DNA from: Selenomonadales bacterium
GTDB lineage: Bacteria > Bacillota > UBA994
Assembly (NCBI GenBank): GCA_018335585.1
Contig: JAGXRZ010000041.1
Location: 1 to 64,000 of the forward strand
DNA: 64,000 nucleotides
Reading direction: 5' to 3'
Below the pieces are notes generated by a model. The model did not search any database. It was not told where the DNA came from and saw nothing but the letters and a program-made list of their open reading frames with translations. Positions within the stretch are counted from its first letter, which is position 1, and the number at the start of each line of letters is the position of its first letter. The position numbers and the translations under genes were made by a program. Shown in pieces: positions 10,714-25,928 of this stretch.

Positions 10714-12135
10714 ATGAAGTTGTTTGACGTAATGCCCGAGCGCTTTTTTATTCTGCTGGCGTCACCTAACCGCAAGGTCTACGCCGAAGCAGTTTTATTA
10801 TTGTACGAGCATTACTTGGCCAATCAGTTCGGCATTCCGTATGATGTCCTGCGCGACGCACTGCAGGAGTTGCTGGAGACCACCGCGCCCACCGGGTTAA
10901 CACTAGATCAACTGGACGGTGATGCCGTTCCACCCTCTGAGGACCTAACTGAAATTGACATATTCCGCGCCAGAGCAGGCACCTTGCTTAGGCAGCTTAA
11001 GCTCTATGGCTGGATAGACATTGAGGACAGGGCCAATTACCAGCGGTATGTCGTGCTACCTCGATATTCTAGCCGCATTCTTGAGGTGCTGAAAGAACTT
11101 TGTAGCCAGCGCGCAGTTGAGTATCAGCGCTTTGCGTTTGTCACCTATACTCTTCTGTCCAACAAAACCGACCGCCCCGGCTATGCCATCCTTGAAGCCG
11201 AAGACACCACCCGTAAGTTCATCAATGCGCTCCGCGAACTCACGCACAATATGCGCAGCCATATGGAAGAGGTTGTCAAGAAGAACTCCATCGAAGAAGT
11301 GCTCGACTACCACTTTGACGAATACAAGGCCAAGGTGGTAGACCGGAGCTACCACCGACTGAAGACGTCCGACCACGTCTCGCGCTACCGGCTAAAAATC
11401 CTTGAGACCGTGCAGAACTACCTTATTGATCCCCCGTCCTTGCGGGAGCTAGTGCAAAGCGCCACACAGGAAGACATTGCGGAGAACAAGGCGGAAGAGC
11501 AAATCCGCTCCGCACTGCTCTACATTGAAGAAGCCTACCGCAACCTAGACGATACGCTTAACCAGATTGACCTCCGCCACCACCAATACATCAGGGCCTC
11601 CTTCGACCGCGCCCGCTATCTTGGCCAATACAGTCAAGGGCTAGACAAGCGGCTTGGGCAGATCCTAGAGTGGGTAGCCCGCCACCCCGCGGCCGACATC
11701 ACTGCGGCCTTTAGCCTGTTTGGCGTTACCCAGCTAACTAACGCGTCACTGTTGCCGCCACGCAAGAAGCGGCCTCCCCTCGCCCCAGAGACCCCCACCG
11801 AAGTTGTCATCCCGGCACAACTGCGGCAGCGACAACGCGACTTAAACCTCGCGCGGCTAAGCAACGCCATCACACCGGCCAAGGTGGCAGACTTTATTTT
11901 GGCGCGCATGGGCGACCGCGAGTTAATATCTATGGCCGACCTAGCCCCAAGCTCTACCGAAGATTTCGTGTACATGGCCTTTGCTTACCTTTATGGGAAC
12001 GACGGCAAGAGCGGCTACAGAATAAGGCGTTCTCCCGACGCCCCGGTAGCAAGGCATGGGCCCTATACGTTTACGAATCACAAGCTAGTCAGGACTTCAC
12101 CCAAAGGAGGGAGTGCCCATGTTCGCAGGACTTAG
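10714..12135 (+). CDS. jetA: Wadjet component JetA (kleisin-like)
   Basis: A 473-aa protein opening with LFDVMPERFFILLASPNRKVYAEAVLLLYE, the signature of the Wadjet JetA family formerly called DUF5716. JetA is the MukF-like kleisin that bridges the SMC-like JetC heads. A winged-helix-like N-terminus and a central helical part (residues about 130-320) match this role. Wadjet recognises small closed circular DNA by loop extrusion and cleaves it, restricting plasmids. It starts at ATG 10714 behind TTAGGAGG and overlaps jetB by 17 bases. The JetA type suggests a type III-like (or type I-related) Wadjet, tentative. Confidence 0.88.
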   Translation: MKLFDVMPERFFILLASPNRKVYAEAVLLLYEHYLANQFGIPYDVLRDALQELLETTAPTGLTLDQLDGDAVPPSEDLTEIDIFRARAGTLLRQLKLYGWIDIEDRANYQRYVVLPRYSSRILEVLKELCSQRAVEYQRFAFVTYTLLSNKTDRPGYAILEAEDTTRKFINALRELTHNMRSHMEEVVKKNSIEEVLDYHFDEYKAKVVDRSYHRLKTSDHVSRYRLKILETVQNYLIDPPSLRELVQSATQEDIAENKAEEQIRSALLYIEEAYRNLDDTLNQIDLRHHQYIRASFDRARYLGQYSQGLDKRLGQILEWVARHPAADITAAFSLFGVTQLTNASLLPPRKKRPPLAPETPTEVVIPAQLRQRQRDLNLARLSNAITPAKVADFILARMGDRELISMADLAPSSTEDFVYMAFAYLYGNDGKSGYRIRRSPDAPVARHGPYTFTNHKLVRTSPKGGSAHVRRT

Positions 12136-12715
12136 CGAAAACGAAAAAGAGCAGATGCGGGATATCGTTAACCGCTTGCTGAGCGTAAACATCCTCGTTA
12201 AAGCCCGCGAACCAGAGCTTTATCATTTGGCTAGGCGCCATAGGGCCACCCTCGACGACTTCTTTAAGGCCTTGGGATGGAACTTCGTGCTTGATGACCG
12301 CCATGACTGCGTCTTCGTGCATTCGCCTGAGGCGCTCCACCGCCTACGCCTGACGCGGGAGGAGAGCATTTGGATTCTCGTCCTCCGCCTCCTGTACCAA
12401 GAGAAGCGGTCGGAACTAGCTTTAAGCGACTTCCCCCTAGTCTCGCTACATGAGATTCGCGCCAAGTACGCCACATTCCAAATACCTTTTGTCAACAAGA
12501 CTCGCCTGCAAGACCTAATTAAGCTAGGTGTTCGCAACAGCCTGTTTAGGCCGCTAGATACCGACCTGCGCTCTGACGACTGCCGCTTTACCCTCTACCA
12601 TTCGCTCTTACACGCCGTCAGCGCCGAAAAAATTGAAGACCTGTCCCACCGCATTGCCCGTTACACCCAAGACGAAGGAGGTGAGCCCGAGAGTGAAGTG
12701 GCTGAAGAAGCTTAG
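12119..12715 (+). CDS. jetB: Wadjet component JetB (MukE-like)
   Basis: A 198-aa protein of the DUF4194 family, the MukE-like winged-helix (KITE) subunit that dimerises and binds the JetA kleisin. Visible elements are an N-terminal helix (LSENEKEQMRDIVNRLL), a tandem winged-helix body (RLTREESIWILVLRLLYQEK and RLQDLIKLGVRNSLFR), and an acidic tail. ATG 12119 is preceded by AAAGGAGG with 8-nt spacing; GTG 12113 lies too close. It overlaps both jetA and jetC, indicating translational coupling and fixed stoichiometry. Confidence 0.88.
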   Translation: MFAGLSENEKEQMRDIVNRLLSVNILVKAREPELYHLARRHRATLDDFFKALGWNFVLDDRHDCVFVHSPEALHRLRLTREESIWILVLRLLYQEKRSELALSDFPLVSLHEIRAKYATFQIPFVNKTRLQDLIKLGVRNSLFRPLDTDLRSDDCRFTLYHSLLHAVSAEKIEDLSHRIARYTQDEGGEPESEVAEEA

Positions 12716-15700
12716 ACTAATTAACTGGCACTACTTTCCTGACGAGACCCTGCACTTCGGAACTCAGACCATCCTCACGGGCATGACCGGAGCAGGCAAA
12801 TCTACCATTATTGATGCCCTGCAGGTTCTTCTCGTGGCCAACAAGCACCAAATCCGCTTTAACTCTGCGGCGCACGAAGACGCTAAGCGCAGCCTCATAA
12901 ACTACCTGCGCGGCAAAATCGGCAGCCAAGAACGCGCCCATGTACGCGAAAACGAATTTACTTCCTACATCATCGCCGAGTTTCGCGACGACAAGCAGCG
13001 CGAGAGCTTTGTGGTGGGAGTAGTGCTAGACGTACACCGCGACGATGCCATCCACGACGAGTACTTTATAATCGACAAGTGCAGGTTAGAGGACCTAACC
13101 TTAAAGGGCCCGAGCGGCCACTGGTGTACACGCGAGGAGTTTAGGCGCAAGCACAACTCCCGAAAAAGCATCTTTGAGCGCACCAAGTCAAGCTACCAAA
13201 ATGCCCTCTGCCACCGCCTCGGTCAGCTAGAGAGCCGCTTCTTCTCGGTGTTCTGCCGCGCTCTCTCGTTTAAGCCCTTAGACGACATCCGCGACTTTGT
13301 CTATAGCTTTATCCTTGAAAAGCGAGAACTACAGCTTGGCCTCCTCAGAGAAAACTTTGAGCTGCACGAGAGATACCAGCGTGACTTGCGCGACCTAGAG
13401 GAGCGCCGCACGCATCTCACCAAGATTGCCGCGCGCTACGACAACTACACCCAACTGCGCGACACAATTAAGCAGCAGGACTACGTCATACGGAGCTTAA
13501 AGGCACAAGAGCGACAAGACGACATCCTGCACACCAAGGACTCTATTAAGCGGGAGCAAACCGCCTACGACGAAGTGCAATCCCTGCTAGACCTAACCCG
13601 AGAGGACCGTGACGAGGCCGAGAGAAACTACCTAGAAGCGCGGCAAAAGCGCGACAGCCACGGCACTCTCCACCTGCAAAGACAGCTAGAAAAGGACCGG
13701 GCAGCGGCAGAAGAAACACTCGCCAGGCAGCAAGCGACTTTGCGCACGCTCTGCGACACATTGCGGCGCGAGCATAGCCTTATCACCGAGCTCCTTAGTC
13801 ACCAAGGCACTGCAGCCTGGCGGTGGGACGCTAGCGACATAGAAACGTTGCAGGCTATAGCCGCATGCCTAGCTAACCTGCCACACCAATCTACCGCAGA
13901 CAGTGCGACAAAACTCCGCTCCGCAGGTGAACACCTCGCCGACCTCTATAGCCGCATGGTGGGACAGGAGGCCTTGCTGAAAAGCTCGATTGGTGAAATG
14001 GAGAAAAAGGCACAGCAGCTCCGCACGGAAATTGAGAACCTGCGCAAGAAACAGCGCCCCTACGGCGAGCAGTTGCGCACCCTAAGAGCCATCTTAACCG
14101 AGCGACTTGGCGCACGTTCGCCAGTATGGGTGCTCTGCGAAGAACTTGAGATTCGCGATGAGGCCTGGCGTGACGCAATCGAAGGCTATCTTAACACCCA
14201 GCGCTTCGACTTGCTGGTAGAACCGCACGCTTTCGCAGAAGCTTTAAGTATTTACGAGCGCGAGAAGCGCACCCACAACCTTGACGGCGTGGGCCTGGTA
14301 GATACCGAAAAGGAGCAAAAACACCTCGGTTCTGTGCGAACAGGCTCCCTTGCCGAGTTCCTCGACACACAAAACGCCGTAGCACGCGCCCGCATCCACC
14401 ATGTTCTCGGCCGCGTCATGTGCGCTGACGACGAGCAAGACCTGCGCCGTCACACCCATGCCGTGACCAAAACCTGCATGTCCTATAGCAACCTCGTCGC
14501 TAGGCAGATACCCCGCGAGCGCTTCGAAGTCCCCTATATCGGCGCGCAAGCCATCGTGCGGCAGCTAGAACAAAAGGGGCGTAGCCTAGAATTAGTAGAG
14601 GCTGAGCTGTCTGCCCTCGGCACGGCTCTCAAGTGGCTTAGCACTACCTCCGCCAAGCTGTCCGAGAAGCGGGCTCGCTATGAAGCCATGGCCGAGCAAC
14701 TCCACCTGCCGACAACTATCGCCGAGCTCGAAGCGTCGGTCAAGGACTTGGCTAGTCAGCTAGCTGCACTTGACGTCACCGAGCTGAAGGCTCTCGAGGC
14801 AGAGGCAGACTACTGGCTTAGGCAAAAGAGTGAACTCGGCAGCACCTACGACAAACTCACGGAACGCAAGGCTACCATAGGGACGAAACTTAACTCCCTT
14901 ACAGGGGAACTGCGCAACCGCGAATTCGCCTTGCGGCAAGCAGAGCTGGCCATAGAGCAGTGGGTCGGGGAGCACCCGGCAGACTTAGCCACGCTGGCTA
15001 AAGAGCGGTTGGCCGAAGCCCTAAAGACCCCCGGTACTTTTGCCGCGCGCATCGTCAACTGGGAGAACAACCAAAAAGGCAATATCACCCGTCGCGACAA
15101 CGAGTTTCAGGCACTGCGTGATGCTCGTCACACGTACAATCTCCGCTACACATTTAACGGCGACCATGCCGCCGAAGACAACGACACTTACCAGCAAATC
15201 CTCTCCCGCATCGGCGGTATAGACATTCCTGCCTACCAAAGCAAACTCGCGGACGCACAGCGTCAAGCCGAAGACCAGTTTAAGTCCCATTTCATGCACA
15301 AAATGCGCGAGGCGATTCTAGAGGCACGCCGCGAGTTCGACCGCATCAACAGTGCCCTGCATAACTTCCCTTTTAGTGACGACCGATACCGTTTTGAAGT
15401 GCGTGCCAGCGATAAGTACCGGCAGTTCTACGACTGCATTATGGACGACGCGCTCGCCGAGCGCGACTCCCTGTTTGCGCTGCCCGACGACGAAAGGGCT
15501 ACGGCACTGCAAAACCTGTTTGAGCAACTTATCCGTGGCGACGCCGACACACAAGAGGAGTTTACGGACTACCGCCGCTACCTCGACTTTGATATTGTCG
15601 TCACCAGCCAAGGCGCGCAGTACAAGTTCTCTAAGGTGCTGCGCGAAAAATCAGGCGGCGAAACGCAGACGCCGTTCTACATCATAATCCTCGCTGCCTT

Positions 15701-16007
15701 TAACCAACTTTACACCAACGGCAAGACCATGCGCCTAGTGGTGTTCGACGAGGCCTTCAACAAAATGGACGAGCAGCGCATTAGGACGAGTCTCCGCCTG
15801 ATAAAAAAGCTAAATCTACAGCTTATTGCGGCTGTCCCCGATGAGAAACTGCAGCATATGGCCCCCGAAGTGACCACCACGCTGCTTGTAGGTCGCACCC
15901 AGTACACGTGTTTTGTGGACATGCTGGCGCAAGAGGAGGTGGCTGTAGCCAATGACGACAGAGCCGCAGAGCTACAAGTACATCATACTCTCTTCCCTGT
16001 TGAGTAA
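12693..16007 (+). CDS. jetC: Wadjet component JetC (SMC/MukB-like ATPase)
   Basis: A 1104-aa SMC-like ATPase, the motor of Wadjet. Walker A (GMTGAGKSTIIDAL) lies near residue 31, a long coiled coil runs from about 240 to 450, a hinge-like region lies around 460-610, a second coiled coil follows to about 900, and the C-terminal head carries the signature SGGE and Walker B (LVVFDEAFNKMD). Both ATPase halves are intact. I start it at GTG 12693 (AAGGAGGTG upstream); the frame is open to 12633 but lacks a site there. It overlaps jetB by 23 bases and jetD by 56 bases. Confidence 0.93.
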   Translation: MKWLKKLRLINWHYFPDETLHFGTQTILTGMTGAGKSTIIDALQVLLVANKHQIRFNSAAHEDAKRSLINYLRGKIGSQERAHVRENEFTSYIIAEFRDDKQRESFVVGVVLDVHRDDAIHDEYFIIDKCRLEDLTLKGPSGHWCTREEFRRKHNSRKSIFERTKSSYQNALCHRLGQLESRFFSVFCRALSFKPLDDIRDFVYSFILEKRELQLGLLRENFELHERYQRDLRDLEERRTHLTKIAARYDNYTQLRDTIKQQDYVIRSLKAQERQDDILHTKDSIKREQTAYDEVQSLLDLTREDRDEAERNYLEARQKRDSHGTLHLQRQLEKDRAAAEETLARQQATLRTLCDTLRREHSLITELLSHQGTAAWRWDASDIETLQAIAACLANLPHQSTADSATKLRSAGEHLADLYSRMVGQEALLKSSIGEMEKKAQQLRTEIENLRKKQRPYGEQLRTLRAILTERLGARSPVWVLCEELEIRDEAWRDAIEGYLNTQRFDLLVEPHAFAEALSIYEREKRTHNLDGVGLVDTEKEQKHLGSVRTGSLAEFLDTQNAVARARIHHVLGRVMCADDEQDLRRHTHAVTKTCMSYSNLVARQIPRERFEVPYIGAQAIVRQLEQKGRSLELVEAELSALGTALKWLSTTSAKLSEKRARYEAMAEQLHLPTTIAELEASVKDLASQLAALDVTELKALEAEADYWLRQKSELGSTYDKLTERKATIGTKLNSLTGELRNREFALRQAELAIEQWVGEHPADLATLAKERLAEALKTPGTFAARIVNWENNQKGNITRRDNEFQALRDARHTYNLRYTFNGDHAAEDNDTYQQILSRIGGIDIPAYQSKLADAQRQAEDQFKSHFMHKMREAILEARREFDRINSALHNFPFSDDRYRFEVRASDKYRQFYDCIMDDALAERDSLFALPDDERATALQNLFEQLIRGDADTQEEFTDYRRYLDFDIVVTSQGAQYKFSKVLREKSGGETQTPFYIIILAAFNQLYTNGKTMRLVVFDEAFNKMDEQRIRTSLRLIKKLNLQLIAAVPDEKLQHMAPEVTTTLLVGRTQYTCFVDMLAQEEVAVANDDRAAELQVHHTLFPVE

Positions 16008-17199
16008 ATATGAGGCCAGCACAGCCTTTCAGGCAGGCAACCTAGGCAGGAGACGGCCGCAGTGGAGCATCGGCGATTCCCCGCTCGCGCGCGACTACAA
16101 TGACGAAATGGATTACGCCAAGCGCGAGGCCATTAACGCAGCTCTCTTGGAGCTAGAGGCAGAAGGCGTAGTTGCGCTAGCCTGGCCCAAATATCGCGAG
16201 CGAACCGAAGTCACGCGCGTGTACCTAGAACTAGGCGCGCTCGACCGAGCTTACGAACTGGCGGGACTTACTCCGAAGGCAAGTAAGCTTAGCTCCATGC
16301 GTACTATCCTGGAGCCACTCCTTGCGCACCCGTGGGGCTGGGTGGCCGACTGGGCACAGAGCACAGATGCAGCTCTTAGTGCCCGCAAAGCTGCCGGGCT
16401 CGACCTAGACGCACCCGACCTCTATTGCAGCTTGGTCAGAGTACTTCTAGCTCTCCCCTCCCTGACCGAAAGCACGCCGCGCCGTGTCTTTAGCCAGCGC
16501 GTCCTAGGCGATAGCAAGGAGTTTGAGCAGCGGGTTGAGAAAGTCTTGCTCCAAGTCTTGCGCGCACACGGCCCGGCCGAATACGAAACCGACGAGGAAT
16601 ACCTCGACAGCGTCAATCTAGTGGTGCACCCCAAGCTGACTTTGCTAGCCGGTGAGCTCGAGTTCACACTTAACGGAATAGCATCTAGCCTTGTGAACTT
16701 CCCCGGCGGGCTCGGCCTCGCCCATCAGAGCATTAAGGAGCTCAGCATCACCTCTTTGTCGACCAAACCAATGCTGACCGTGGAGAACCTTACGACATAC
16801 TACCAAGTCACTCAGCACCAACAATCCCGTTGGGGCTTGGTAGTTTACACCGGCGGCTTTCCTCACAGCGGCACCAAGCAGCTGCTTGCCAAGCTCGCCG
16901 TGACGCTAATAAGTAAAACCCCCGCAGCAGAAGTCTACCACTGGGGGGATATCGACTATGGTGGCATACGCATCTTTCAGCACCTAAAAGAAACGTTCTT
17001 CCCGTCGTTGCGCCCTTACCTGATGGACGTCGCTGCCTACAGGGAGTACGCCGAGCGGGGCCTATCCTTTGAGCAGAGTTACGCCCTTAGGCTACAGGCT
17101 CTCCTCCACGATGAACGGTATCTGGAATGGCGCCCACTGCTTTTGGAGATGTTATCCCGCAAAGTACGTGTGGAGCAAGAGAGTATCGGGCTGCAATAG
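15952..17199 (+). CDS. jetD: Wadjet nuclease component JetD
   Basis: A 415-aa protein with a helical/winged N-terminal half (residues 1-220) and a C-terminal DUF2220/Toprim-like domain. The acidic Toprim motif is seen in YHWGDIDYGGIRIFQHL (about residues 325-341). JetD is the topoisomerase VI-like subunit that cuts the circular DNA trapped by JetABC. The order A-B-C-D and overlap with jetC complete the system. The ATG at 15952 has GAGGAGGT about 10 nt upstream. Confidence 0.9.
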   Translation: MTTEPQSYKYIILSSLLSKYEASTAFQAGNLGRRRPQWSIGDSPLARDYNDEMDYAKREAINAALLELEAEGVVALAWPKYRERTEVTRVYLELGALDRAYELAGLTPKASKLSSMRTILEPLLAHPWGWVADWAQSTDAALSARKAAGLDLDAPDLYCSLVRVLLALPSLTESTPRRVFSQRVLGDSKEFEQRVEKVLLQVLRAHGPAEYETDEEYLDSVNLVVHPKLTLLAGELEFTLNGIASSLVNFPGGLGLAHQSIKELSITSLSTKPMLTVENLTTYYQVTQHQQSRWGLVVYTGGFPHSGTKQLLAKLAVTLISKTPAAEVYHWGDIDYGGIRIFQHLKETFFPSLRPYLMDVAAYREYAERGLSFEQSYALRLQALLHDERYLEWRPLLLEMLSRKVRVEQESIGLQ

Positions 17200-19067: not shown

Positions 19068-20225
19068 CTAGAATGTTGAGATCATCTTGTAGATGCCGAA
19101 CTCACGGTGTTTAAGCGATTCCGCTTTGGTATACTTACCGTTCACAACTTCGCAAATCTCCCTGAAGATTTCCTCACCAACTTGAGCGATAGTTTTTTCG
19201 CCGTCAATGATCGTTCCAGCATTTATGTCAATGTTGTCCTGCATTTTCTTAAAGTTTTCGGAGTTGCCGCATACTTTGATGACAGGTGCTAAAGGCGAGC
19301 CTGTCGGAGTACCGCGCCCCGTGGTAAACACTATTATTTGCGCGCCTCCCGCCACCATGCCGGTAATCGACTCGATGTCTTGGCCTGGTGTGTCCATGAG
19401 CCATAATCCCTTTTTGTCCGGCATATCGGCGTAGTCCAACATACCTTGTATCGGCCTAGACCCGCCCTTATATATACATCCAAGTGACTTTTCCTCAATG
19501 GTAGTAAGTCCGCCCTGAATATTGCCGGGAGTAGGCTGCCCTGTACGCAAATCAACACCCATGGTATTAGCTTTGGCTTCGCAGTCCTTGACAAAATTCA
19601 CTATACGTCTGGCAACATCCTCGTTTACGGCACGCTTAGCAAGTATGTGCTCCGCGCCGATAAACTCCGTTGTTTCCGAAAACATGGATATGCCACCGCT
19701 GTCTACGACCTTATCTGAGGCATATCCAACGGCCGGGTTTGCAGATAAACCGCTGGTTGTATCAGACCCGCCACACTCGACTGCCAGGAAGATGTCCGCA
19801 AGAGATATCTCGCTCCTTTGCATCTGGCTTAGACTAGTCGCCATTGCACGCGCAATAGCTAATCCCTTGGCCTGTGTTTGCATAGTGCCGCCGTTCTCTT
19901 GTATTAGAAGATATTCCACTGGCTTCCCGGTAGTAGCGATTTCTGCTGCGACCATTGCTGTGTTAATGCCTTCGCAGCCCAGCCCTATGATCAGGGCTGC
20001 GCCCACATTTGGGTTTTTCCCCAAATTTATAAGCACTTTTGCAGTCAAGTCTAAGTCAGGCCCTATCTGACAGCACCCGTGCTGATTTTCTAGATAGACT
20101 GCGCCCTCCACACTATCCGCTACCCGTTTACAAACCTCAAGCGCGCAAATGGAAGCAGGGATGACTGCAAGGTGATTGCGTATACCGATAGCGCCGTTCG
20201 CTCTCTTATATCCATAAAGCTTCAC
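19068..20225 (-). CDS. UxaA-family dehydratase, large (C-terminal) subunit
   Basis: A 385-aa protein of the altronate/galactarate dehydratase family (UxaA, GarD, SuyB), catalytic part. Conserved stretches include GYKRANGAIGIRNHLAVIP at the start, ENQHGCCQIGPD with the metal-binding Cys residues, VECGGSDTTSGLSANPAVG, and FTTGRGTPTGSPLAPVIKVCGN. In this family the enzyme eliminates water (or sulfite in SuyAB) from a hydroxy acid using a divalent metal. Here the enzyme is split: the SAF subunit is encoded just upstream with a 4-base overlap (ATGA). The kinase, PdxA2 and KdgT neighbours point to a sugar acid, but the exact substrate is open. Confidence 0.85.
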   Translation of the reverse strand: MKLYGYKRANGAIGIRNHLAVIPASICALEVCKRVADSVEGAVYLENQHGCCQIGPDLDLTAKVLINLGKNPNVGAALIIGLGCEGINTAMVAAEIATTGKPVEYLLIQENGGTMQTQAKGLAIARAMATSLSQMQRSEISLADIFLAVECGGSDTTSGLSANPAVGYASDKVVDSGGISMFSETTEFIGAEHILAKRAVNEDVARRIVNFVKDCEAKANTMGVDLRTGQPTPGNIQGGLTTIEEKSLGCIYKGGSRPIQGMLDYADMPDKKGLWLMDTPGQDIESITGMVAGGAQIIVFTTGRGTPTGSPLAPVIKVCGNSENFKKMQDNIDINAGTIIDGEKTIAQVGEEIFREICEVVNGKYTKAESLKHREFGIYKMISTF

Positions 20226-20524
20226 TGTCCCCTTACCTCCAAGTCTCCGCGTCCACGGTCGCTTACGATATTATGAACGTGTGCATAATGGCCTATAGGG
20301 ATCTCTTCGATGGCATGTCCGATTATTTCCCCATACTTAATTACCTTCCCTTCTTTTGGTATAAAGGCGACTGCGAACTTGTGCCCAAAGGCAACTTTTT
20401 CCTGCAAAGTAACGCTCTGTGCCTTACCACCTATATCCAACAACACGGTCTCGCCTTTTTGCAGGTCTTTTACTGCCGTTGCTACATTGTCATTTTCATG
20501 CGCCACGACTGCGAACTTGAGCAT
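20222..20524 (-). CDS. UxaA-family dehydratase, small (SAF-domain) subunit
   Basis: A 100-aa SAF domain protein, the N-terminal domain of altronate dehydratase encoded separately as in SuyA. The motif AVVAHENDNVATAVKDL near the start and GHKFAVAFIPKEGKVIKYGEIIG in the middle are typical, and GHYAHVHNI is the conserved C-terminal element. It should pair with the large subunit downstream. ATG 20524 is preceded by AAGGAAGG with 8-nt spacing; an upstream GTG at 20533 overlaps that site. Confidence 0.85.
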   Translation of the reverse strand: MLKFAVVAHENDNVATAVKDLQKGETVLLDIGGKAQSVTLQEKVAFGHKFAVAFIPKEGKVIKYGEIIGHAIEEIPIGHYAHVHNIVSDRGRGDLEVRGQ

Positions 20525-20559
20525 TGCGAGCACCTTCCTTCATCATTTTGTTCTCGAGA

Positions 20560-21519
20560 CTAATCAGCGGTTACCATAGGCCTTGTATTGACTTTGTCAC
20601 GCTTGTCTAGGAAGTTGACCAGTAACGGACACAGGATGGCGGTTACAATGATAGCCGCAGCAATCTGCACTGTAGCAGAGGTAGCTAATTCTGCCAAGGC
20701 AGGGTCGGCAGCAGCCAAGGCCATGGGGGTTCCAACCGCGTTGCCCGCGGTCGTACCTATAGCAGCCCCAACTGCCGGACTCGGGTGGCGGATAAGCTTG
20801 AGTGCGTAATACCCACCAAACCCTGTAAGCACAACGCACAGCAAACCAAGAATGATTCCCGGGCCACCCGCCTGCACTAATTGTGAAAGGTTGAGTGCGG
20901 CTCCCAACGGAAAGGCAAAAAACGGTATAGTCATTTTAGTGCCCGGCTCAAGGAAAGTCCTTATATTTTCATCGAGATTACCCAACACACACCCTACAAC
21001 GATAGGTAAGATCACCGCTAAAAGCGCCATAATCGGGATATTGGCCATGCCAGCTGCACCTAGAGCCACCATAGTTAAGAACGGGCCATCGTTTATCGAG
21101 AGGACTGAAACGGCACCCACGTCGTTGGGGTCCCCGTATTGACTAGAGAGGGCAGCGTACAGCCCGCCGTTAGAGTTAGTTAACGCTGCGATGATGGCAA
21201 GGGGGGTGATCCCTAATATTCCCCACGGCCCCCACACTGCGTCAATCAGAATGCCGAGGAGCGCCCCTATGGCAAACTTGACAATAGTTAAAATCACACC
21301 GCGCGAGAGGGGCTGACCCGCTTGCTTTACGTTTATTTGCGCGCCATTGCAGAACAGGAACAAGCCCAAGATAGCTGGCACACCCGTTCTCCAAAGCCCT
21401 GTAGTGAACCCGCCGATATCTATAACACTAGGTACAAATGTGTTCACTAGAATCCCCAGAAACAAAGGTACAACCATCAGCCCGCCCGGTATTTTCCTTA
21501 CTGTTGATAGAATTGGCAT
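20560..21519 (-). CDS. kdgT: KdgT-family sugar-acid permease
   Basis: A 319-aa integral membrane protein with about ten hydrophobic segments belonging to the 2-keto-3-deoxygluconate permease family: it begins with KIPGGLMVVPLFLGIL and contains the conserved GLWRTGVPAILGLFLFCNGAQI and ALTNSNGGLYAALSSQYGD motifs. It is a cation-coupled importer of a sugar acid. Family members next to DUF1537 kinase and PdxA2 genes may carry four-carbon acids rather than KDG, so the symbol describes the family, not a proven substrate. It lies between the kinase and the dehydratase subunits in one operon. Confidence 0.85.
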   Translation of the reverse strand: MPILSTVRKIPGGLMVVPLFLGILVNTFVPSVIDIGGFTTGLWRTGVPAILGLFLFCNGAQINVKQAGQPLSRGVILTIVKFAIGALLGILIDAVWGPWGILGITPLAIIAALTNSNGGLYAALSSQYGDPNDVGAVSVLSINDGPFLTMVALGAAGMANIPIMALLAVILPIVVGCVLGNLDENIRTFLEPGTKMTIPFFAFPLGAALNLSQLVQAGGPGIILGLLCVVLTGFGGYYALKLIRHPSPAVGAAIGTTAGNAVGTPMALAAADPALAELATSATVQIAAAIIVTAILCPLLVNFLDKRDKVNTRPMVTAD

Positions 21520-21609
21520 TGCCTATCCTCCTTTACTTGACGTGAGCCATCATTTCCGATCAGCATCTTATGGATATGTTTCGTAGCCTACCATGACTCC
21601 CCCCTCGAC

Positions 21610-22827
21610 CTATTTTTCTTTGAGCTTTCTGAGACAATGGACAATGGCATCTTGCTTCCCAAATGCACCCGCTTTTGTTATCACCTTCATTCCATCGCAC
21701 TTAGTGCCAACCATCTTCATGAGCGGAATCCCGACCAGCACTTCTGAAATGATGTCAAAACTCCTTGCACCGAGGCGGTCGAAAAACCCCATGGCGGTAT
21801 CTCCGCCTGTCAAAAATATGCCTGAGATTCTCGTACTACCCACAACATCGACGGCTATTTTGCCAATGCCCGCTTGGATTTTTCGCCCCACATCAACAGC
21901 AGAAAGCCCCAACTTCTCGCCTTCAGCCTGAGACTGAGCGACCTCATCTCTATCAAAACAGGCCACAGACACCAACACAGCATCTTTCCCGTCCTTGATG
22001 ACTCGCGTGGCTAGGTCGACATAGCTCGAATACTCCTCGCGAAACAGATCCCGCCATGATATGGGCACAAGTACCGCACCGTTTTCTTCAGCACACCTCA
22101 CTTGCTCACGGCTTGTTTCACTCATACTGGCAACCACAGCGAGAGCCGGATATTGAGGGGCTTCAACCTGCATCAGACTATCGACAATCCCTGCAGAGCC
22201 AACCCAGAGAATCTTCTTCCTTCCTGATTTGAGTGCAGCCAACACCACAGCCTCCATGTGCTCATTGGTTATGGCATCAGACGTGAATACCCTACCTTCC
22301 CCAAAATCAATCCTGTCCTCTTCAATCTCTTTGACCCCAATGTTGGTTACTTCTTCGCTGTAAACAGACTTGAGGATGCTACGCAGATTATCCTCCTTAA
22401 CTGGCGTCTTTGGGTCACGGGCTATTTCAGTTTCAGTAACCCTCTTACCTTTCAGCATGTGTACGCCGTTCCTAGTCGTACGCCCCATATTTGGGAATGC
22501 CGGCATAAATACTATCAGGTCGCTCCCATATGCCTTATCTGTAGCAAAAACTTCGTACGCGACATTCCCCCTCAGGGTGGAGTCGATCTTTTTGACCACA
22601 TGCGAAAATGCACAACAGTCTATGATTTGCAGCTGCTGTTCTAGGACGGCAAAGGCTTCTTCTCCGGGTAAAGCACGGCTTTCTGTATCCAAAACATAGC
22701 TCTTCGGCAGTCCCCCAACCGCGCTCGCATCTAAGGTTACTACGGTGTCAATGCCGCGCCGCACCAGTTGAACCCCAGTATCGTTGGCACCTGTAATGTC
22801 ATCCGCGATTATTAAAAGTCGGCTCAT
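21610..22827 (-). CDS. Four-carbon acid sugar kinase (DUF1537 family)
   Basis: A 405-aa kinase of the DUF1537/OtnK-DtnK-DenK family. The N-terminal substrate domain opens with LLIIADDITGANDTGVQLVRRG and contains KKIDSTLRGN. The C-terminal nucleotide-binding domain shows GIFLTGGDTAMGFFDRLG and VITKAGAFGKQDAI. Such kinases phosphorylate D-threonate, D-erythronate or 3-oxo-tetronates at C4. With a PdxA2-type dehydrogenase encoded nearby, phosphorylation followed by oxidative decarboxylation to dihydroxyacetone phosphate is the established route for D-threonate and D-erythronate. It is first in the operon; its start ATG 22827 has a weak GGGAG-type site. Confidence 0.85.
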   Translation of the reverse strand: MSRLLIIADDITGANDTGVQLVRRGIDTVVTLDASAVGGLPKSYVLDTESRALPGEEAFAVLEQQLQIIDCCAFSHVVKKIDSTLRGNVAYEVFATDKAYGSDLIVFMPAFPNMGRTTRNGVHMLKGKRVTETEIARDPKTPVKEDNLRSILKSVYSEEVTNIGVKEIEEDRIDFGEGRVFTSDAITNEHMEAVVLAALKSGRKKILWVGSAGIVDSLMQVEAPQYPALAVVASMSETSREQVRCAEENGAVLVPISWRDLFREEYSSYVDLATRVIKDGKDAVLVSVACFDRDEVAQSQAEGEKLGLSAVDVGRKIQAGIGKIAVDVVGSTRISGIFLTGGDTAMGFFDRLGARSFDIISEVLVGIPLMKMVGTKCDGMKVITKAGAFGKQDAIVHCLRKLKEK

Positions 22828-22924
22828 TTGTCCCGCTCCCGCCTTACTTCAACATTTAGCTCATGACAATGGACTTGTTGTAATTGTAATATCAGTTGCG
22901 ATAGTCAGTTATATCTATGCGCAA

Positions 22925-22953
22925 AAAAAACGTTTCACTATGAAACGTTTTTT
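22925..22953. terminator. Bidirectional hairpin; regulator-gene terminator
   Basis: A perfect 13-bp stem (AAAAAACGTTTCA/TGAAACGTTTTTT) with loop CTA stands 19 bases beyond the stop of the PrpR-like regulator gene. Read on the minus strand it is followed by 8 Ts, so it is a good terminator for that gene. Its core also contains a palindrome that may be an operator. Confidence 0.75.
22932..22946. promoter_or_regulatory. Operator candidate GTTTCACTATGAAAC
   Basis: A 15-bp palindrome (arms GTTTCA/TGAAAC) lies about 105 bases before the kinase start, upstream of a possible -10 (TATAAC on the minus strand). A near-identical site (GTTGCATTATGAAAC, 24877-24891) overlaps the pdxA start. Two sites of this kind flanking one regulator gene suggest they are its binding sites. 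Confidence 0.5.
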
Positions 22954-22971
22954 CACTGACGCAACTTCTGG

Positions 22972-24732
22972 TTAACCACTCCCTCTTTGAAGCATCCTCC
23001 AAAGGGTTGTGCGGCTTATCCCCAACCTTCTGGCCGCCCTAGTCTGGTTCATGCCCTCTTCCCTCAAAACGGCCGCCAGAATATCATGTGTAATTTTTTC
23101 AATTGGTTGTTTGGTGTTTACACTAACCTGACCCGTCGCAGGGAGTATTTGCTTCCACCCTTCATTATCAAGTGCCCACTTCACATCATGTGCCGAAATG
23201 TAGGAACCCTTAGTTATGGAAGCCAGCGTGCTTAGCACTCGCTTTAGCTGGCCAAGGTTGTGCTCCCAGGGAAACTGCTTTAGCATGGCAATCCCTTCTG
23301 GTTCGCAACCCAGTATGTTGAGGCCGTGTACGACGTTGATCTCATTGAGGAAGGCTCCTAAAAGCCCTGGGATATCCTCCGCTCGCTCCCGCAGCGGGAG
23401 CAGCTTTATGGTGAGGCTGGGCATACGACTGTTAAACGCACGGTAGGCATACTTATGGTGCAGGTCGGAAAGGCGCGTAGTCAAAGTGACAATCAGGCGG
23501 TTCCTAAGATGAAGCTGGCTACTTTCCACAAAAGCGAGCAGCCTTTGTAGCCGCTCTTCAGTTAGGCTATGGATGTTTTTGAAACACACCGTGCGTTCCT
23601 TAAGAAGTAAACACGAGTCAGTGCTGCCCAAAAGGTGAGCGAGGCCCTTGGTATCGAGTTCGTCAAAGTCGATGCAGTAGCTTTTCCCCCTCCCAGAAAT
23701 AAGCATGTTAGCCACCCGCTCTTTACCGGTACCGGTTTCGCCGACAACTATCACCGGCAACCTACTATTCCGGCAACGGTCAATGTCCTGCAGCAGCTTT
23801 GAGTCGTAGCTGGAATTCAAACTAAAATAGCTCCCGTGTAAGTCTTGCTTAACAATAGCGTACACCCCAGGAATCACATGGTTCTCACCCCGGTCCACCT
23901 GTTCGATCAAGTAGATGCAATATGTCGTGCCGTCTATCTGCACTAAGTGGCCTGAGACCTTGACATTACGATTATCCACCTTCTGTACTAAGGTATGCCT
24001 ACTATTTCTGAGAACAGTGGGATTCATTTCCCGTGTAATTCTTAAGAATAGTTCCTTATCCTTCTTTATGTTACTGAATATAGGGTCGCGCTCTGCAAAG
24101 ATAATGACACCGCCGCCACCTAAGCGGGTGGCTTGGTGTAACATCTGATTTTGACCCCTAATCTTTTCAAGGTTACGGTAGAAGCTTACAGCTTCCTCAA
24201 CAGCTGTTAGTGCGCTTTCTCGAGAGGATGTAATTAAGACAGCTGTCAAGCCCTGTCTTTGCGCCTCAGTAAAGGAGATTGTGTCCCCAAAAATCATGGT
24301 GTACCCTTTCTCTGCTAGGGTTTGTATGGCACCGTAAACGTCATTCGTCCTTTCGATCTCCACAATTTCCACTTTGCTTTGGAGGATGTCGCGCAACACC
24401 TTGGCCATTTTGCATATGTTGGGGAATCCCACAATGGCACATTTACCGATGTGGGATTCGGCTAGCTTCATAACACCCATGAGGTCGTAGTGCGAGAGCG
24501 CAATTTCGATTACCGGTAGTTGGGCAGTGTCCCGGATCAGCTTGGCCGTGCCACCCCGTGAGATGATGATGTCGTACTCAGATTCATCAAGCTGCCGAAC
24601 GAGATCAGCTCCTGCCTCCAAATCGGCCTGGTAGGCTGTAATCTCTAAATCATCACGATTTTCCCCAATACTCATGAACATGTCTTTAAGCCCTGCATAA
24701 GGAGCGACAACCAAGATCCTCAGCTTCCGCAT
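22972..24732 (-). CDS. PrpR-N/AAA/Fis transcriptional regulator lacking GAFTGA
   Basis: A 586-aa protein with a PrpR N-terminal sensor domain (residues about 5-185, DIIISRGGTAKLIRD), a PAS-like linker (about 200-290), a sigma-54-type AAA+ domain (about 310-510) and a C-terminal Fis-type helix-turn-helix (NQTRAARRLGISRTTLWRML). The AAA domain has Walker A GETGTGKER and the LPLRERAEDIP motif, but the region after Walker A is shortened and the GAFTGA loop that contacts sigma-54 is missing. It is therefore unlikely to activate sigma-54 promoters and probably works as a ligand-responsive repressor or sigma-70 activator of the flanking sugar-acid genes. It is divergent from pdxA. Confidence 0.8.
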   Translation of the reverse strand: MRKLRILVVAPYAGLKDMFMSIGENRDDLEITAYQADLEAGADLVRQLDESEYDIIISRGGTAKLIRDTAQLPVIEIALSHYDLMGVMKLAESHIGKCAIVGFPNICKMAKVLRDILQSKVEIVEIERTNDVYGAIQTLAEKGYTMIFGDTISFTEAQRQGLTAVLITSSRESALTAVEEAVSFYRNLEKIRGQNQMLHQATRLGGGGVIIFAERDPIFSNIKKDKELFLRITREMNPTVLRNSRHTLVQKVDNRNVKVSGHLVQIDGTTYCIYLIEQVDRGENHVIPGVYAIVKQDLHGSYFSLNSSYDSKLLQDIDRCRNSRLPVIVVGETGTGKERVANMLISGRGKSYCIDFDELDTKGLAHLLGSTDSCLLLKERTVCFKNIHSLTEERLQRLLAFVESSQLHLRNRLIVTLTTRLSDLHHKYAYRAFNSRMPSLTIKLLPLRERAEDIPGLLGAFLNEINVVHGLNILGCEPEGIAMLKQFPWEHNLGQLKRVLSTLASITKGSYISAHDVKWALDNEGWKQILPATGQVSVNTKQPIEKITHDILAAVLREEGMNQTRAARRLGISRTTLWRMLQRGSG

Positions 24733-24816
24733 GCCATCTCCTCCCCTACGCTAATTGTTTCATTAATGTACGAACAACCTTGGTTCCGCAGATTGCAGTG
24801 GCTAACCGCGACAGAT

Positions 24817-24830
24817 ATTATCATGATAAT
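24817..24830. promoter_or_regulatory. Perfect 14-bp palindrome in divergent promoter region
   Basis: ATTATCATGATAAT lies midway between the divergent regulator and pdxA genes. It may be an operator for a second regulator or part of the divergent promoter. Nothing else in the window shares it. Confidence 0.35.
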
Positions 24831-24876
24831 CATAGCAAAAACAAAATCACAGCCTACACGTAGGTTGACGGAGGGT

Positions 24877-24891
24877 GTTGCATTATGAAAC
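24877..24891. promoter_or_regulatory. Operator candidate GTTGCATTATGAAAC
   Basis: A 15-bp palindrome with one mismatch, overlapping the pdxA start codon (ATG 24885). It matches the palindrome at 22932-22946. Its position over the translation start suits a repressor or roadblock site. Confidence 0.5.
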
Positions 24892-25928
24892 AGGGCAAGC
24901 CGATTATTGGCATAACTATGGGTGACCCGGGAAGCATAGGTCCCGAGATTTCGGTAAAGGCTTTGCGCGATTCCGCAATATACGAGAAATGTCGGCCGAT
25001 CATTATTGGTGATGTGCCTGTAATGCAAAAAGCACTTGAAATTGTCGGCAGCAACGATCTCAACGTTAATTCGGTCAGTGATGTCAGTTCAGCCCGCTTC
25101 AAGCATGGGATCATAGACGTATTCGACATGGGTGCCATTTCAATGGACAAGGTGGATATCGGTAGATTCACGGCCGCTAATGGTGCGGCTTCCTATCGCT
25201 ATGTAGAAAAAGCCATCACCTTAGCATTGAGCGGTGACATTGACGCAACAGTAACAAACGCGTTGAGCAAAGAGGCGATCAACTTAGCTGGACACGTCTA
25301 TGCAGGTCATACCGAAATCTATGCTCACCTGACCGGGACTACTCAATATGCTATGATGCTCGCCCATGATGATCTGCGGGTAGTTCACGTATCGACTCAT
25401 GTTTCCTTGCGGGAAGCATGTGAACGCGTGAAAGAACATCGCGTCTACGAAGTTATCGTGCTGGCAGATAGAGCCTGCAGAACCCTTGGGATTAAGCGCC
25501 CTGCAGTAGGGGTGGCCGGGCTTAACCCCCACAGCGGAGAAGCGGGAATGTTTGGCACCGAGGAAATCGACGAAATCATCCCCGCTATTGAAAGGGCAAG
25601 GAAAGAGGGCATAAGCGTAGAAGGACCTATCCCGCCGGACACAATATTTCCAAAAGCTAGGGGCGGATGGTATGATATCGTGGTAGCCATGTACCACGAC
25701 CAAGGACATATTCCGCTGAAAATGGAAGGTTTCGTTTATAATAGAGTTGAGAAAAAATGGGATGCAGTGTCCGGTATCAATGTCACGCTAGGCTTGCCAA
25801 TTATCCGTACCTCAGTTGACCACGGCACCGCAATGGACATAGCTTACAAGGGAACGGCTAGCCCATCCAGCCTTGTAGCAGCCATATCCTGTGCTGTGAA
25901 GTTTGCTGAAAATCGAAATGCCCCGTGA
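24885..25928 (+). CDS. PdxA2-type 4-phosphate dehydrogenase
   Basis: A 347-aa member of the 4-hydroxythreonine-4-phosphate dehydrogenase (PdxA) family. It begins with the conserved IGITMGDPGSIGPEI; metal-binding histidines are seen in YAGHTEIYAHLTG and MYHDQGHIPLK, and GLNPHSGEAGMFG is the substrate loop. In this context, with a DUF1537 kinase and KdgT, it is most likely PdxA2, which oxidises and decarboxylates D-threonate or D-erythronate 4-phosphate to dihydroxyacetone phosphate and CO2 with NAD. True PdxA of vitamin B6 synthesis is less likely because no B6 genes are nearby. The start is ATG 24885 after GGAGGG. Confidence 0.85.
   Translation: MKQGKPIIGITMGDPGSIGPEISVKALRDSAIYEKCRPIIIGDVPVMQKALEIVGSNDLNVNSVSDVSSARFKHGIIDVFDMGAISMDKVDIGRFTAANGAASYRYVEKAITLALSGDIDATVTNALSKEAINLAGHVYAGHTEIYAHLTGTTQYAMMLAHDDLRVVHVSTHVSLREACERVKEHRVYEVIVLADRACRTLGIKRPAVGVAGLNPHSGEAGMFGTEEIDEIIPAIERARKEGISVEGPIPPDTIFPKARGGWYDIVVAMYHDQGHIPLKMEGFVYNRVEKKWDAVSGINVTLGLPIIRTSVDHGTAMDIAYKGTASPSSLVAAISCAVKFAENRNAP

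Follow-up and report, generated by a model that had tools for sequence, protein, structure and literature searches.

A conserved locus joining a split UxaA/GarD-type dehydratase to a DUF1537 kinase and PdxA2: a candidate D-threonate utilisation module with two exits

A route from D-threonate to dihydroxyacetone phosphate (DHAP) has been described (PMC10079672); the same source reports that KdgT of Ralstonia eutropha imports D-threonate and that Escherichia coli equipped with the kinase and the 4-phosphate dehydrogenase of this route could use the acid for growth with KdgT but not without it (PMC10079672). In Clostridiales, kdgT–uxaA forms the XduR regulon, which has been labelled as a pectin degradation system (PMC6615313), and a sigma-54-type promoter has been assigned to kdgT–uxaA of C. 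difficile (PMC7438776). UxaA gives its name to the UxaA/GarD superfamily, to which the sulfolactate sulfo-lyase SuyAB also belongs; four cysteines are conserved across the superfamily, SuyAB excepted (PMC6336799). The locus described here combines parts of these systems. It occupies positions 19068–25928 of a 64,000-nucleotide stretch (the window), which is part of a contig (C41) of a 2.34 Mb draft genome from Selenomonadales (G000; completeness 96.18, contamination 3.99) in a small class with 15 genomes available for comparison. No paper linking a split UxaA dehydratase to the DUF1537/PdxA2 route was found in a search that had the primary DUF1537 paper (Zhang 2016) and subscription journals outside its scope.

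The locus is proposed to channel D-threonate, imported by KdgT, into two exits. In the first, the DUF1537 kinase would form D-threonate 4-phosphate, which PdxA2 would oxidise and decarboxylate to DHAP, yielding NADH and CO2. In the second, the split dehydratase would remove the C3 hydroxyl of D-threonate to give 2-oxo-4-hydroxybutyrate (OHB), which might then be reduced, transaminated or cleaved by general cell enzymes. D-threonate is the leading candidate for the main substrate of the dehydratase, held tentatively and at a little under an even chance.

Gene content and conservation

On the minus strand the gene order is PrpR_N regulator, kinase, KdgT, SAF subunit and large UxaA/GarD subunit, and pdxA2 stands divergently on the plus strand. 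The large dehydratase subunit (385 amino acids; 19068–20225, minus strand) matches PF04295 (E = 2.6e-37) and PF20629 (E = 4e-101), and the SAF-domain small subunit of the same enzyme (103 amino acids; 20222–20533, minus strand; PF08666, E = 7e-9) has a reading frame that overlaps that of the large subunit by 4 bases. The KdgT-family permease (319 amino acids; 20560–21519, minus strand; PF03812, E = 2e-120, 402 bits) and the DUF1537 four-carbon acid sugar kinase, nearest to DtnK (405 amino acids; 21610–22827, minus strand; PF07005 and PF17042), belong to the same operon, and the PdxA2-type 4-phosphate dehydrogenase (347 amino acids; 24885–25928, plus strand; PF04166, E = 2e-105) is divergent from all other genes. 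An earlier note on this DNA had named the split dehydratase, KdgT, the kinase and PdxA, and their Pfam/NCBIfam matches and coordinates bear it out. Its single operon holds for the kinase, KdgT and the dehydratase, but not for PdxA2, which lies beyond a regulator that the note did not mention. In window coordinates, an oxidative gene set and a dehydratase gene set flank this single regulator gene.

A scan of 84,980 species genomes used an alignment of three large subunits as query, and the gene content of the best 80 loci was read by tblastn with the window proteins. All six genes occur together in 27 of these 80 loci, the kinase with PdxA2 and KdgT in 30, the kinase with PdxA2 in 31 and the kinase in 32; the dehydratase is found with KdgT but without the kinase in 11, and the SAF and large subunits stand alone in 33. 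These counts are lower bounds because some loci stop at contig ends (e.g., L010, L020, L021). Carriers include Clostridium, Tissierellaceae, Thermosediminibacter, Sedimentibacter, Acetomicrobium, Treponema, Acidaminococcus and one Sumerlaeota genome. In a tree of 92 large subunits, that of the window falls in a 25-row clade (support 100/100), for which 24 loci were fetched, 17 with the kinase and 7 without it. Two other regions of the tree hold kinase cassettes as well, and the minimal cluster of C. difficile falls in one of them.

An unbiased sample was examined as well, namely 397 genomes spread evenly over the phylum to which Clostridium tetanomorphum belongs. Of these, 68 have the kinase (E ≤ 1e-25), 73 the large subunit (E ≤ 1e-80) and 92 PdxA (E ≤ 1e-45). 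Kinase and large subunit share 31 of these genomes, and in 13 of the 31 they are at most 10 kb apart (tables compared by eye). Every large subunit at least 60% identical to that of the window (11/11) lies within about 3 kb of a kinase, whereas below about 57% identity only two have a kinase within 10 kb (G113, and the second copy in G078); this split indicates that kinase linkage is confined to one part of the dehydratase family. Most DUF1537 kinases in the sample have no dehydratase nearby. The co-location of kinase and dehydratase exceeds chance, and the module is conserved rather than a one-off. The earlier note had seen no place for the dehydratase inside the kinase/PdxA2 route; this view stands, and the functional tie between the enzyme and the route comes from conservation in many genomes.

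The same note had suggested a dehydration before phosphorylation. Such a linear route would explain why one operon holds both dehydratase and kinase, in the window and in the cassettes. In a 2-keto-3-deoxy product, however, the C3 hydroxyl that PdxA2 would oxidise is gone, and because OHB is such a product, dehydration cannot precede the kinase–PdxA2 exit. Each branch also stands alone: in addition to the 11 loci with KdgT and dehydratase but no kinase, KdgT and kinase occur without the dehydratase in L149 and L098, and no such kinase was found in the C. difficile genome searched. On this chemistry and this separate occurrence the linear route was rejected as very improbable.

The imported acid and the type of dehydratase

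Compared with three NCBIfam DUF1537 models, the window kinase scores 270 bits with the D-threonate kinase model NF047819 and 96 and 46 bits with the others; among 15 cassette kinases the best E-value is 1e-113 for the D-threonate kinase model, versus 6e-59 and 4e-23. The window PdxA passes the general pdxA model TIGR00557 only (342 bits, cut-off 290) and is under the cut-off of NF002891 (330 of 583 bits); the solved chains nearest to it include 2hi1 (PdxA 2) and 6e85 (D-threonate 4-phosphate dehydrogenase). KdgT lies within Pfam KdgT and is under the cut-off of the KDG-transporter equivalog TIGR00793 (241 of 453.8 bits). A role of PdxA2 in vitamin B6 synthesis was rejected because PdxJ is missing from all 20 genomes searched that carry the cassette or its minimal form, the own genome included; the same search matches 4 of 14 control genomes.

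In a KdgT tree made by a quick method and with several long branches, the transporters of C. difficile and of other minimal clusters nest among those of the cassettes. The DUF1537 kinase (E ≤ 1e-8) is missing from 4 of 20 genomes searched, two of them of Desulfosporosinus and one each of C. difficile and Thermodesulfobacterium. Since the C. difficile KdgT comes from a genome without the kinase and yet nests among cassette KdgTs, the dehydratase probably acts on the same acid that KdgT brings in for the kinase.

The sharing of LarA points the same way. In L015, L020, L021, L023, L073, L077, L080 and L140, the dehydratase has a LarA-family gene as its neighbour (L139 duplicates L020, and L143 duplicates L023). 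At four specificity residues taken from PMC11770544, the signature FFWQ is found in seven dehydratase operons, i.e., in all adjoining LarAs but that of L073, where the match is cut off. Other signatures are FFWE (L067) and FFWS (L146), and more distant LarAs have other letters (L047, L079, L134, L135). The LarAs of L150–L152 read WE at the last two positions, the first two being read in L151 and L152 only, and their neighbours look, by eye, like genes for an electron-transfer flavoprotein and an FAD-linked lactate dehydrogenase. In L149, an FFWQ LarA shares one operon with KdgT and the DUF1537 kinase and with no dehydratase, which ties LarA to the acid of KdgT and the kinase. Together, the common transporter clade and this sharing suggest that both exits may use the same acid.

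The superfamily to which the dehydratase belongs is clear from its GD_AH_second and GD_AH_C domains, with the SAF domain on a separate chain. The large subunit is 37% identical to a SuyB-like protein, 37% to GarD and 33% to UxaA, and a profile of the window, L003 and L004 sequences gives 283 bits with solved GarD (6u7l). The four superfamily cysteines, mapped by alignment, are Cys27, Cys51, Cys84 and Cys151 in the window protein and are all present in 89 of 92 aligned rows, that of the window included. The exceptions are MRAD_SuyB, which has lost three, and the haloarchaeal HALOM_Ua and HALOM_Ub, which have lost three and one. The former is the SuyB-like protein of Methylobacterium radiotolerans (L090), probably a true SuyB to judge by its neighbours (TauE/SafE exporter, NAD(P)-dependent oxidoreductase, Ldh-family oxidoreductase) and its 77–79% identity to Paracoccus homologues. 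On haloarchaeal megaplasmids, a DUF1537 kinase stands with two tandem UxaA large subunits (L085:7989–10629; L087:3196–10626, with PdxA too in L087); in the tandem pair of Halomarina, one copy is without three of the four cysteines and the other without the fourth.

Because the four cysteines are kept, the window protein is of the dehydratase type and not a sulfolactate lyase. The SuyAB-type enzyme of the earlier note could appeal to the split subunits and to the 37% identity with the SuyB-like protein; yet three of the cysteines kept here are missing in that protein, as the superfamily rule demands (PMC6336799), and neither a sulfite exporter nor a sulfolactate dehydrogenase family is among the domains found at the locus. 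On cysteines and neighbours, this identity was rejected and is extremely improbable. The split dehydratase is probably Fe-dependent. An epimerase role for the UxaA protein itself was considered; the characterised D-arabinonate dehydratase showed no 2-epimerisation (PMC6336799).

At C2 and C3, D-threonate has the same configuration as D-altronate. This agrees with a passage of PMC10079672 in which enzymes were chosen for (2S,3R) acids and two D-arabinonate dehydratases turned D-threonate into OHB; both have been placed in the UxaA/GarD superfamily (PMC6336799). Since several (2S,3R) acids are taken by this superfamily (PMC10079672, PMC6336799), another D-threo or related 2,3-dihydroxy acid might be the substrate, such as D-tartrate (giving oxaloacetate), D-arabinonate or a deoxy-tetronate, and a single enzyme yielding oxaloacetate would suit the minimal clusters. 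The kinase and PdxA2 neighbours favour a tetronate, however, and no tartrate gene was seen among the scanned neighbours, although no search was aimed at tartrate genes. This reading is improbable and ranks second among the rivals to D-threonate.

Next below it, and improbable also, is a dehydratase for D-altronate or another hexonate that would form 2-keto-3-deoxygluconate. Superfamily membership, the published label of XduR kdgT–uxaA (PMC6615313) and a KDPG aldolase (PF01081) in the own genome (G000:C23) speak for it. The uronate isomerase UxaC, however, is missing from the own genome and was found in only 6 of 20 genomes searched, C. difficile being among the 14 without it. Eight of 20 genomes lack the KDPG aldolase family; no member was found in 3 of 10 genomes with the cassette or in two with minimal clusters, M. 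mangenotii and Anaerotignum (drafts). These absences disfavour a pectin or altronate role, which would also leave the conserved C4 kinase and PdxA2 unexplained. A sulfolactate lyase or an altronate dehydratase with partner genes elsewhere would have refuted the earlier note; the cysteines speak against the former, and the absence of UxaC from the own genome against the latter.

Longer-acid UxaA operons differ from the cassette in carrying DHDPS, FAH or semialdehyde-dehydrogenase partner genes, no homologue of which adjoins a cassette operon (tblastn, best 80 loci); weak semialdehyde-dehydrogenase matches in L009 and L045 are at some distance from it. The sole DHDPS match, in Acetomicrobium hydrogeniformans (L018:2–3075), stands beside a second, paralogous UxaA–SAF–KdgT set, which resembles Salmonella and Metabacillus plasmid loci (L089 and L088) and is taken as another pathway built from the same parts. 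The own genome has a second sugar-acid locus (L148; G000:C23:20000–28000) with TRAP-type genes and the KDPG aldolase and, read by eye, an FGGY-type kinase, a 2-hydroxyacid dehydrogenase and a LarA-like gene.

Several observations weigh against D-threonate and the proposed second exit. The 270 bits of the window kinase are under the NF047819 cut-off of 450. In PMC10079672, E. coli UxaA was tried on D-threonate and is not among the enzymes that the passage names as active, and the active ones, Hh.AraD and Aa.AraD, are slow (PMC10079672). In the literature examined, no enzyme of the window dehydratase clade has a measured substrate. The window operon has no dedicated OHB-consuming gene. An HpcH/HpaI aldolase adjoins the Sedimentibacter cassettes L073 and L080, which would fit a longer 2-keto-3-deoxy acid too and, with the glycerate kinase beside a Sedimentibacter cassette, counts for a hexonate. 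The last position of the LarA signature, Q, has been linked to a preference for glycerate (LarAH43; PMC11770544), and L015, L017 and L080 have glycerate kinase genes close to the cassette.

These last two observations keep glycerate live as the main rival. The dehydratase would turn L-glycerate into pyruvate in a locus for mixed short acids, C4 acids passing via kinase and PdxA2 and C3 acids via the dehydratase, and LarA-type racemases, where present, would supply L- from D-glycerate. Pyruvate as product would explain the partnerless dehydratases of the 33 loci with SAF and large subunits only, and SuyAB, of the same superfamily (PMC6336799), acts on a C3 acid. On the other hand, the FFWQ LarA of L149 stands with KdgT and kinase and with neither dehydratase nor glycerate kinase, which indicates a tetronate; the window locus has neither LarA nor glycerate kinase; and a limited literature search found no natural L-glycerate dehydratase. 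A LarA fragment of the own genome (L147) adjoins what was read by eye as a lactate operon, and its participation in this pathway was rejected. Glycerate is thus judged unlikely, though it is placed first among the rivals.

One further gene might bear on the fate of OHB. Ketopantoate is 3,3-dimethyl-OHB, and a ketopantoate-reductase-family gene lies directly 3′ of the large subunit in L062 and L131–L133, from three close Synergistota genomes (L132 is on the same contig as L062). Because these are close relatives and 93–100% identical, the linkage counts as one observation.

The regulator and neighbouring features

The regulator (22972–24732, minus strand; PF06506, PF14532, PF25601, PF02954) consists of a PrpR_N domain, a sigma-54-activator-like AAA domain and a Fis-type helix-turn-helix. 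Its Walker A motif (GETGTGKE) is intact and the helix-turn-helix is kept; the GAFTGA loop and the Asp-Glu of Walker B are missing. The RpoN DNA-binding domain was not found in the own genome (about 96% complete), nor was a −24/−12 (sigma-54) site in the window intergenic regions, i.e., 5′ of the kinase–KdgT–dehydratase operon (22828–22971, minus strand) and between the divergent regulator and PdxA2 genes (24733–24884). With GAFTGA, Walker B and RpoN all missing, it is not an XduR-type sigma-54 activator; these losses suggest that it has probably been re-wired to another sigma factor. Of 43 regulator genes scanned, 35 have a sigma-54-type site (at most 2 mismatches) in the 400 bases downstream, versus 1 with such a site upstream. 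The regulators of L062 and L083 likewise lack GAFTGA, and the genome of L083 (G028) has the RpoN domain.

Between regulator and kinase lies a 13-nucleotide perfect inverted repeat with A and T runs (22925–22953), probably a terminator separating the regulator from the kinase operon. A terminator scan of the window did not pick it up; that scan found 5 terminators (6.5 expected from shuffles) and a sigma-70 promoter scan 12 promoters (8.0 expected), neither usefully above chance.

In Clostridium thermopalmarium, the gene right after the cassette (L014:12603–13679) encodes a methyl-accepting chemotaxis protein that carries a PrpR_N domain, and chemotaxis through the same sensor domain as that of the regulator is possible. 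An Escherichia albertii plasmid carries a minimal SAF–UxaA–KdgT–sigma-54-type regulator cluster (L086:7663–12330). A close UxaA large subunit (55%) of a Desulfurococcaceae archaeon is followed by a small open reading frame and then by pyruvate:ferredoxin oxidoreductase-family genes (L069:9989–12851). Elsewhere in the window, JetC (12633–16007; 1164.8 bits) and JetD (15952–17199; 438.5 bits) mark a type I Wadjet anti-plasmid system, in which the open reading frames at 10714–12135 and 12113–12715 are probably JetA and JetB.

Relation to known systems

Taken jointly, the claims are that the split dehydratase is the natural D-threonate dehydratase, whose reaction has so far been known only as a side reaction of D-arabinonate dehydratases; that with kinase and PdxA2 it would let anaerobes disproportionate D-threonate, with OHB or 2,4-dihydroxybutyrate as electron sink; that the FFWQ LarA nickel enzymes are tetronate C2-epimerases; and that kdgT–uxaA of C. 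difficile is a D-threonate operon and not a pectin operon. That all of this is true together is rather unlikely. If it were, a function would be given to a set of genes that is widespread and at present goes under the labels altronate hydrolase and pectin degradation; the C. difficile operon of this set is among those that co-culture with D. piger represses most strongly (PMC10174544). Candidate natural D-threonate dehydratases would also be supplied. To the knowledge of the authors of PMC10079672, no such activity had been reported before, and the dehydration step is a bottleneck in making 2,4-dihydroxybutyrate (PMC13279387). A tetronate-epimerase subgroup of LarA would be predicted. The regulator is a clear case of a sigma-54-type activator retained after loss of sigma-54 motifs.

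The D-threonate pathway (DtnK, PdxA2 and KdgT) of a Burkholderia multivorans plasmid (L098) has KdgT, a DUF1537 kinase and PdxA in one locus, as in the window; the loci of this known type that were examined have a DeoR-type regulator and no dehydratase, whereas the window has the split dehydratase and a PrpR_N regulator. The C. difficile cluster (CD2869 regulator XduR, kdgT1–uxaA) shares KdgT, a split UxaA and a PrpR_N-type regulator with the window, with about 64% identity for KdgT and 61% for the large subunit. It differs in having a −24/−12 promoter and an intact Walker B, both missing here, and in the absence of a DUF1537 kinase from the genome searched. The D-altronate, galactarate, D-arabinonate and D-idonate dehydratases of the UxaA/GarD superfamily have the same two Pfam domains, SAF and the four cysteines, whereas the window enzyme consists of two chains, is only 33% (UxaA) and 37% (GarD) identical and has other neighbours. 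SuyAB has the same two-subunit organisation, with different neighbours and without the cysteines that the window enzyme keeps.

The closest functional parallel may be the dha regulon, i.e., glycerol dismutation, in which a kinase/dehydrogenase exit to DHAP is paired with a dehydratase exit. If the proposed D-threonate module is right, it would work alike, half of the acid being oxidised and half dehydrated, which would suit the anaerobe carriers; a role of the second exit in redox balance is speculative. The dehydratase and kinase of the dha regulon are unrelated to those of the window, which has no dedicated reductase, so that the likeness would be one of pathway logic.

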